Positions 62,825 to 64,000 of a stretch of 64,000 nucleotides of DNA are shown piece by piece. The translations under genes and the position numbers were made by a program. Numbering within the stretch: position 1 is the first letter of the stretch; each line of letters begins with the position of its first letter. The stretch lies in NCBI RefSeq assembly GCF_006516955.1, contig NZ_VHLG01000002.1, forward strand, positions 310,001 through 374,000. Direction: 5' to 3'. Under the pieces are notes generated by a model. It did not search any database and was not told the origin of the DNA. It worked only from the letters and a program-made list of their open reading frames with translations. The stretch is from Martelella alba. Lineage in GTDB: Bacteria; Pseudomonadota; Alphaproteobacteria; Rhizobiales; Rhizobiaceae.

Positions 62825-62878
62825 GCTGGGGCCGACCCGGTTCAACGCGACGGCACCGGCGACACTGCCTTCAATTTA

Positions 62879-63030
62879 CGCAGCGTCAGACATGACTTTC
62901 GCCCAGCCTTGCGCTGAGTGCATAGACGCCTTGCAGCAAAGCCACTGCCTCGTCGATGAGACCTTCGCTATATGTCAGTCAACACAGATTGATGAGCAAC
63001 AGACTAGGTTGCTCAAGAGACGGAGATTTT
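62879..63030 (+). repeat. 152-base leader repeat, copy 1, upstream of DUF1127 gene
   Basis: Aligns without gaps to 63849-64000 (offset 970) with about 11 differences. It contains the conserved hairpin GAGCAA/TTGCTC (62994-63014) and the CGGAG ribosome binding site, and ends three bases before the ATG at 63034. It is therefore promoter plus 5' UTR of the DUF1127 gene. Confidence 0.9.
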
Positions 63031-63033
63031 ACG

Positions 63034-63177
63034 ATGGGCATGGCACGTTCCTTCAACAACTGGGTGAAGTATCGTCAGACCGTCAGCGAGCTCGACCGCA
63101 TGTCGACACGGGAACTGTCGGATCTCGGCATCAACCGCGAAGATATTCGCCGCGTCGCCCGCAAGGCTTCGTTCTAA
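63034..63177 (+). CDS. DUF1127 small protein (CcaF1-like)
   Basis: 47 residues: MARSFNNWVKYRQT..., LDRMSTRELSDLGINREDI, and RRVARKASF. This is a complete DUF1127 domain, rich in Arg/Lys, without a signal or membrane segment. The ATG at 63034 has CGGAG 10 bases upstream; a second ATG lies two codons in. In Rhodobacter the DUF1127 protein CcaF1 is encoded with the CcsR sRNAs and binds RNA; the same gene order is seen here, because three CCTCCTCCC-loop hairpins follow the stop directly. Role by analogy: RNA turnover under stress. Confidence 0.92.
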   Translation: MGMARSFNNWVKYRQTVSELDRMSTRELSDLGINREDIRRVARKASF

Positions 63178-63184
63178 GCTTCCC

Positions 63185-63330
63185 CCCGGCCTTCAGGGCC
63201 GGGACATCAATTCGTTGCGACGCACTCCTCCTCCCAGCGTCGCCTCGATATGGTTGACGATACTCCTCCTCCCAATCGTCAATCAACCCAATGACGCCCA
63301 CCGGATCCTCCTCCCCCGGTGGGCGTTTTG
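63185..63330 (+). ncRNA. CcsR/cuckoo-type sRNA with three anti-Shine-Dalgarno loops
   Basis: Four consecutive hairpins follow the DUF1127 stop. The first is CCCGGCC/GGCCGGG (63185-63203). The second has stem GCGACGC/GCGTCGC (63217-63243), the third TTGACGAT/ATCGTCAA (63254-63282), both with the same 13-base loop ACTCCTCCTCCCA. The fourth has stem CGCCCACCGG/CCGGTGGGCG (63295-63325), loop ATCCTCCTCCC, and TTTT after it, so it is also the terminator. The unpaired CCUCCUCCC can pair with Shine-Dalgarno sequences. The arrangement equals that of CcsR RNAs cut from a DUF1127 mRNA in Rhodobacter. Confidence 0.88.
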
Positions 63331-63391
63331 CTATTCTACGGACGTCATTCACGGGTTGCGTCGCATGGCTGGCAGGTCAGGCAGGCGAATG

Positions 63392-63619
63392 TCATGAGGC
63401 CCCGCGCCGATTGGCAAGCCGGCGGATTTCCTGCTCGTGAAGCTCCTTGATTTTCTGCTCATTCTCTTCTCGCTGTCGTTCTTCCTGCTCCCGCGTTGCC
63501 TCTGCCCGCGCCGCCGCCGCGGCCCGTTCCTGAGCCTCTCTATCCCGGCGCAACTGCTCGCGCGCCGCGGTATCGATGGACCTTGACCGGGATCTATCGC
63601 CATAAGGCTGAATTGCCAT
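63392..63619 (-). CDS. Small charged coiled-coil protein, hypothetical
   Basis: 75 residues from the ATG at 63619 with GGGAG 10 bases upstream; an ATG 15 bases earlier is possible. After a short start (MAIQPYGDRSRSRS) nearly the whole protein is one Arg/Glu/Ala-rich helix, for example RDREAQERAAAAARAEAT and EENEQKIKELHEQEIRRLA. Family not recognised. Low GC-skewed codon choice is not decisive, so it is only a probable gene. Confidence 0.5.
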   Translation of the reverse strand: MAIQPYGDRSRSRSIDTAAREQLRRDREAQERAAAAARAEATREQEERQREENEQKIKELHEQEIRRLANRRGAS

Positions 63620-63848
63620 TTCAAAAGCTCCCATAGATTACACTTCCACGACCGTAGCCATTGAAACCGCGATAAAAAATTCTTTAATTTTAATGATGCG
63701 ACCGCAGCTGGAACTGAAAATAAAGGACTTGTGTCACGCGCTCCGCCATGCCCTGCGCGGGATATGAGCGAAATATGGCTTTCTCAAATCCACGATCACC
63801 GACAGCGCCTGGCCACAGGGCAGCTCGGGAGGGGCTGCCTGCGTTTTG
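63620..63848. other. Intergenic region before second leader copy
   Basis: About 230 bases. A minus-strand frame at 63690-63923 is open but runs through the leader repeat and is not accepted as a gene. Nothing else recognised. Confidence 0.4.
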
Positions 63849-64000
63849 CGCAGTGTCAGGCGTGGCTTTCACCCAGCCTTGCGCTGAGTGCATAGACGCC
63901 TTGCGGCAAAGCCACTGCCTCACCGATGAGACCTTCGCTATATGTCAGTCAATACAGATTGGTGAGCAACAGACTAGCTTGCTCAAGAGACGGAGATTTT
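63849..64000 (+). repeat. 152-base leader repeat, copy 2, at window end
   Basis: Second copy of 62879-63030, with the GAGCAA/TTGCTC hairpin and CGGAG site preserved. The window ends exactly where copy 1 has four more bases before its start codon, so a second DUF1127 gene is expected to start just outside. Confidence 0.85.

Follow-up and report, generated by a model that had tools for sequence, protein, structure and literature searches.

The DUF1127 gene and the three-hairpin RNA behind it in the analyzed window (the whole 64,000-nt stretch, positions 310,001–374,000 of Martelella alba contig NZ_VHLG01000002.1) probably form a cuckoo RNA/CIN1-type operon, whose single transcript, preceded by an LsrB/VtlR-like box, would be cleaved to a trans-acting anti-Shine-Dalgarno RNA. 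Coordinates are window positions unless a contig or locus is named.

The DUF1127 gene, the ar14 RNA, and their copies

The gene was taken from the open reading frames (63034–63177, +; ATG at 63034, stop codon at 63175–63177). Its 47-aa product matched PF06568 in Pfam (E 5.1e-15, 55.4 bits), which bears out the DUF1127 call of the initial annotation, made from the letters. Downstream, the Rfam covariance model of ar14 (RF02344) matched 63207–63331 (+) over its full length (1–123) with 113.2 bits, the gathering cut-off being 58.8. The founding member of this family is NfeR1/Smr14C2 of Sinorhizobium meliloti. The region 63207–63331 was folded (minimum free energy −52.9 kcal/mol) into hairpin 1 (63212–63248, +), hairpin 2 (63251–63285, +), and a terminator hairpin (63289–63330, +). 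Loop 1 (ACTCCTCCTCCCA, 63224–63236, +) is an anti-Shine-Dalgarno loop, loop 2 (ACTCCTCCTCCCA, 63262–63274, +) is the identical 13-mer, and loop 3 (ATCCTCCTCCC, 63305–63315, +) sits on a terminator-like stem. Three hairpins, two of them with the same 13-base loop and the third on a terminator stem, had been noticed at the outset and were confirmed by folding. Like ar14 RNAs in general, the window RNA has an unpaired CCUCCUCCC in each of its three hairpins, and its stems are variable.

Membership in the CcsR family was rejected, as the CcsR1 model (RF02791) gave 19.1 bits with a cut-off of 65.3. The covariance search with cuckoo RNA models that had been suggested was thus passed with ar14 and failed with CcsR1; of the earlier claim of CcsR kinship, the cuckoo-type relation stands, but the closest family is ar14/NfeR1 and not CcsR. 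From the DUF1127 stop codon, 29 nt were measured to the ar14 start and 34 nt to the first stem, instead of the 40 bases first given. The word "fused", used in the same place, means no more than a downstream position of the RNA in the presumed 3′ UTR. A candidate 5′ UTR hairpin, GAGCAAC/GTTGCTC (62994–63014, +), was predicted from the letters. The interval between stop codon and array holds a hairpin without the CCTCC motif (63185–63203, +), possibly a processing spacer. Several DUF1127-linked loci of the genus have a comparable CCTCC-free hairpin and several others lack it, so this leader hairpin was rejected as a family feature.

The motif CCTCCTCCC has three sites on the two strands of the 64-kb window, and all three are in ar14 loops. 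First-order Markov simulation gave a mean of 0.48 sites per 64 kb and no triplets within 100 nt in 200 runs, by which a chance origin of the loop triplet was ruled out. In the whole genome, 44 sites were counted (31 forward, 13 reverse), 12 of which make up the triplets of four ar14 copies.

A second copy of the window unit lies 970 bp further on, and the two are 95% identical over 464 nt. The upstream region of the second unit is still inside the window (63860–64000, +; box 63880–63893, −10 63938–63943), and its DUF1127 domain and ar14 RNA (109.7 bits) follow just past the window end (G000:C22:374013 and 374177). Both copies have the frame, box, −35, −10, and three loops intact and fold into the same three hairpins. 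The closest named relative, Martelella sp. HB161492 (L096), has the same upstream genes (80% identity over 444 nt) and one copy of the unit. Between the tandem units, an 80-aa Arg/Glu-rich reading frame was observed (63392–63634, −); DNA similar to its region (L012:1421–1840) was not found in L096 or L149.

Elsewhere in this genome, 445-bp units consisting of a promoter, a DUF1127 gene, and a two-hairpin RNA stand in tandem (G000:C54:1–1021 and G000:C48:1–600; L013, L014). There are at least four, partial ones included, in an array broken by the assembly at the C54/C48 ends. Genome G011 (L185, 3.2 kb read) has a single copy of this type, the two sides of which match C54 and C48. The two-hairpin RNAs of these units reach 47–50 bits to ar14, below the cut-off. 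Another two-hairpin-like stretch with CTCCTCCCTCCC and CCTCCCC motifs (G000:C55:181149–181257, −; L017) scored 36.1 bits, also below the cut-off, and no DUF1127 match was found nearby.

All 13 genus genomes have ar14 over the cut-off, in 40 arrays (three in each of 12 genomes, four here). The loop pattern parsed 39 of them; L171, which it missed, is changed in loop 1 and lacks an upstream DUF1127. Among the parsed arrays, 27 lie directly behind DUF1127 and 12 do not; for L150 and L152, the linkage was taken from the map instead of from the parsing. Each genome has one solo ar14 and two DUF1127-linked copies, with a third linked copy in this genome. As an ar14 with no DUF1127 in front exists in every genus genome, the RNA does not require the protein. 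After removal of two exact duplicates, 37 rows were aligned. In loops 1 and 2 the core never varies, and three CCTCCTCCC motifs are kept in 36/37 rows (L179 has two and departs at loop 3). Changes on both sides were seen in 14 of the 27 pairs predicted in the consensus fold, which recovers just three pairs of hairpin 1. The loop invariance is partly built in by the choice of rows by loop pattern, and the fairer conservation figure is the 39/40 covariance-model matches that pass this pattern. Kept loops on covarying stems uphold the selection on the loops proposed at the start, and loss of the loops at orthologous loci, named there as a reason to abandon the idea, did not occur. Across the order, ar14 passed the cut-off in 29/199 sampled genomes under stricter filters and is not universal.

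The promoter and its box in the genus

An LsrB/VtlR-like box, TGCG-N6-GCAT, is predicted at 62910–62923 (+) from its genus-wide conservation. The letters further read as a −35-like CTGCCT (62945–62950, +), 17 nt before a −10-like CTATAT (62968–62973, +), which is 58 nt after the box start and would place the start site at approximately 62980. A TGC-N11-GCA dyad that starts 44 nt before the box (62866–62882, +) is suggestive of an NtrC site. The S. meliloti nfeR1 promoter is given as CTTAGAC-N17-CTATAT, with an LsrB site TGCA-N6-GCAT at about −72 and an NtrC motif TGC-N11-GCA from −116 (PMC10746234). The window thus has a promoter of NfeR1 type in that the box precedes CTATAT, with one box letter off the S. 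meliloti form, but the −35 CTTAGAC is replaced by CTGCCT at 62945–62950. By its letters, the window promoter resembles those of NfeR1 and of VtlR-activated small genes.

A TGCR-N6-GCAT box was found ≤420 nt upstream of 40/40 genus arrays (39 parsed and L171). YTATAT follows 30–80 nt after the box in 19 of the 39 parsed arrays, with a spacing of 58 in all 19; the other 20 are without an exact YTATAT at the expected place. The offset of 44 nt of the NtrC-like dyad recurs in the duplicate of the window unit and in the ortholog L149, and elsewhere only roughly, in L184. Dyads at 42–46 nt were present in only 4/39 genus arrays and at 31 nt in five (background 0.0006 per position).

The box followed after 44 nt by YTATAT gave 55 matches in the 13 genus genomes and none in the reversed control. 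When assigned by hand, 38 stood before DUF1127, four before a solo ar14, 12 before genes of a second small-protein family (5 of them read, 7 assigned by the promoter letters alone), and one at the contig end in the C48 array, with none left over. Matches of the small-protein type occur in 12/13 genus genomes (5 read). One such case in this genome is a 55-aa small protein behind a box, −35, and −10 of the same type (G000:C2:53079; L206, 1501–1860), for which Pfam and NCBIfam gave no match; a CATCCTCCC stretch follows its stop.

Compared with the published Brucella VtlR motif (PMC12595884), the window box has 11/15 matching positions, a score that is weak on its own and is equally reached by 50/576 random 300-nt Rhizobiales pieces. 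Nothing came out of a generic sigma70 and terminator scan, which relies on the E. coli consensus, unsuited here, and limits loops to ≤8.

Linkage and the box in other alphaproteobacteria

A DNA-pattern scan for the three motifs at ar14 spacing returned at least 120 loci. DUF1127 was ≤400 nt upstream on the same strand at 53 of the 120 loci listed, with approximately two expected by chance (75 DUF1127 domains in 938,674 bases); among the same loci, it was downstream of seven arrays and on the opposite strand at none. With the taxonomic groups taken from record titles, the link among the loci listed was strongest in Rhodobacterales (34/40), and the counts were 18/60 for Rhizobiaceae/Brucellaceae, 0/6 for Devosia, 1/6 for other or unsure alphaproteobacteria, and 0/8 for non-alphaproteobacteria. 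The last eight look like chance matches of a low-complexity pattern. In a Tropicimonas record (L132, 7525–7932), four triple-motif arrays were observed 110 bp apart, perhaps because hairpins behind a single DUF1127 gene were amplified recently. Short DUF1127 proteins of alphaproteobacteria are reported to occur often together with CcsR-like sRNAs, an arrangement called the "CIN1 locus", a name credited to Reinkensmeier and Giegerich 2015 (PMC10253847), and this report supports the DUF1127 link and the CcsR/cuckoo kinship put forward initially. As the window locus has a DUF1127 gene beside cuckoo hairpins, we infer that it represents this known arrangement in a Martelella.

The VtlR motif was applied in its reversed form to 300-nt upstream regions with a threshold of ≥12/15. 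It was reached in 30/31 regions of the Rhodobacterales DUF1127-cuckoo loci listed and in 4/320 random controls; three of the 34 linked loci listed were left out, having <300 nt upstream. Neither of the two unlinked Rhodobacterales genes among the loci listed reached it. For the remaining alphaproteobacterial loci listed, the counts were 5/19 linked genes, 1/17 unlinked genes, and 30/51 solo arrays (controls 10/576). The box with a TTGYKC core 21–24 nt further was present in 28/34 Rhodobacterales operons among the loci listed, with 36 matches in total on both strands of 1.88 Mb and none in the reversed control. Before the Rhodobacterales operons (loci among L031–L145), a strongly conserved stretch reads ATGCA-N6-GCATGGCAGCATTG, then ATTGTGCA..GCAGCAT, and lies mostly approximately 145–260 nt before the DUF1127 domain. 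A dyad search brought out related dyads in Rhodobacterales but nothing box-like in the linked Rhizobiales operons.

In this genome, trxB and two ar15/AbcR RNAs flank a LysR-type gene (trxB-lsrB-abcR order, as for LsrB/VtlR), which has 90% and 85% identity to its best matches in the A. pusense and Ensifer genomes. The exact TGCR-N6-GCAT is absent from the abcR promoter of this genome, which has 12/15 of the VtlR motif. VtlR is reported to activate directly the small gene atu1667, orthologous to bab1_0914 and bab2_0512, and whether atu1667 acts as an RNA is left open in that source (PMC7486931). In Brucella, three DUF1127 genes are reported to be upregulated by VtlR (PMC12595884).

LsrB-like proteins (39–43% identity) were found in all 11 Rhodobacterales genomes picked from the 40 loci listed, and the one tested (P0001) was a reciprocal best match (263.1 bits, 130.7 for the next). 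No trxB was found beside the 11 genes, with approximately 2 kb covered on both sides in ten and, in L203, one side covered only to approximately 150 nt past the gene; orthology there is thus not backed by synteny. The Rhodobacterales loci do not include R. sphaeroides itself. In the openly accessible literature, judged by title and abstract start, no paper tying LsrB to CcsR was found. As a tentative reading, control by one LsrB/VtlR-type regulator might be ancestral for DUF1127-cuckoo operons in Rhizobiales and Rhodobacterales. Operons of the ccaF1-CcsR type, reported as RpoH-driven, would in that case have a conserved LysR-type box, about as far from the core promoter, through which an LsrB-like protein switches them. 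The Martelella box-plus-promoter would define a nearly closed regulon that comprises DUF1127 genes, cuckoo RNAs, and another small-protein family, and tandem multiplication of the units would raise the RNA dose.

Proposed mechanism, alternatives, and meaning

In the operon that we favor, a single transcript would start at approximately 62980 from a sigma70-type promoter, with the LsrB/VtlR-like activator box approximately 70 nt upstream of the start, encode the 47-aa DUF1127 protein, and end at the third hairpin. RNase E would cut the 3′ UTR between the stop codon and the array and release an RNA of approximately 125 nt, perhaps with the aid of the DUF1127 protein, as reported for CcaF1. Via any of its loops, the RNA would pair with the ribosome-binding sites of many mRNAs, above all those of transporters, and thereby block their translation. 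NfeR1 is reported to need LsrB and to silence mRNAs via three redundant motifs, loop pairing at ribosome-binding sites blocking translation (PMC10746234). CcsR1–4 are described as cut from the ccaF1 3′ UTR (PMC8625941), and the DUF1127 protein CcaF1 of Rhodobacter sphaeroides is reported to help RNase E cut, while an Agrobacterium DUF1127 protein is reported to bind the sensor kinase PhoR (PMC12501420). By analogy, the DUF1127 protein of the window may bind RNA, as CcaF1, or a sensor kinase, as in the case of PhoR.

Each of the known systems shares part of this layout. The window RNA and NfeR1 have in common three hairpins, CCUCCUCCC loops, and variable stems, and their units have the LsrB-like box and the CTATAT −10 in the published order, with a possible NtrC-like TGC-N11-GCA of the window unit at the published offset. 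However, NfeR1 is reported to be transcribed as a 123-nt RNA under a promoter of its own, whereas the window promoter precedes a DUF1127 gene and differs in the −35. The C52 copy, with no DUF1127 in front, would be nearer to NfeR1 in arrangement. The CcsR1–4/CcaF1 (RSP_6037) locus of R. sphaeroides shares a DUF1127 gene followed by CCUCCUCCC-loop hairpins in one 3′ UTR; there, four RNAs are described (RS0680a, later CcsR1, has two stem loops), in contrast to one three-hairpin RNA in the window, and the promoter is reported as RpoHI/HII-dependent (PMC10253847), while the window −10 is nfeR1-like. Adjacency of DUF1127 and a cuckoo RNA is shared with the CIN1/cuckoo family as reported in the same source. 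In the VtlR/LsrB regulon of Agrobacterium and Brucella (abcR, atu1667, bab1_0914, bab2_0512, and vrsA), a LysR-type activator directly switches on an sRNA and small DUF1127-type genes (PMC7486931, PMC12595884). The window genome has the related box and the trxB-lsrB-abcR gene order in common with this regulon. Hairpins behind the DUF1127 genes of the regulon are not mentioned in the available parts of these two sources, but they are present at the window locus.

Three other readings were weighed. The gene order and the loops would also suit a stress module as in Rhodobacter, a ccaF1-CcsR operon under RpoH control that responds to heat or singlet oxygen; such an operon has been described, with an RpoHI/HII-dependent promoter and oxidative induction (PMC10253847, PMC5036791, PMC8625941). 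We consider this unlikely, given the 19.1 bits to the CcsR1 model, below 65.3, and a −10 (CTATAT) shared with nfeR1 and placed 58 nt from the LsrB-like box. With a promoter like those of NfeR1 and of VtlR-activated small genes, a module of the heat/RpoH type is not the first expectation. As LsrB has been described as redox-responsive (PMC11975290), the module may yet have an oxidative link.

That the array is merely a 3′ UTR stabilizer and terminator of the DUF1127 mRNA, with its loops acting in cis, if at all, would fit its place behind the gene and the terminator-like third hairpin, yet it is very improbable: ar14 also occurs without DUF1127 in front, under its own box, the loop letters are kept while the stems change, which a mere stabilizer does not need, and the NfeR1 motifs are reported to act in trans (PMC10746234). 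On the third reading, DUF1127-RNA units would multiply in this genome by tandem duplication with only one of them expressed, and the window copy would be a decaying duplicate. The nearby second copy (970 bp away, with 95% identity over 464 nt) and the single copy in L096 speak for decay, as does the report that northern blots reliably showed only one of the six nfeR1 copies of S. meliloti (PMC7143759), by which the window copy may be silent or conditional. We still hold decay to be quite improbable, as both copies keep the frame, box, −35, −10, loops, and three-hairpin fold, and the second has 109.7 bits to ar14.

On the preferred reading, an operon with a cleaved trans-acting RNA, the locus belongs to an already known RNA family, and the DUF1127-cuckoo link is already in print (PMC10253847). 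The locus joins the work on ar14/NfeR1 and CcsR sRNAs with that on LsrB/VtlR-activated DUF1127-type genes, which the sources available to us treat apart. If one regulator switches both, some of the phenotypes of lsrB/vtlR or DUF1127 mutants may stem from the downstream RNA.
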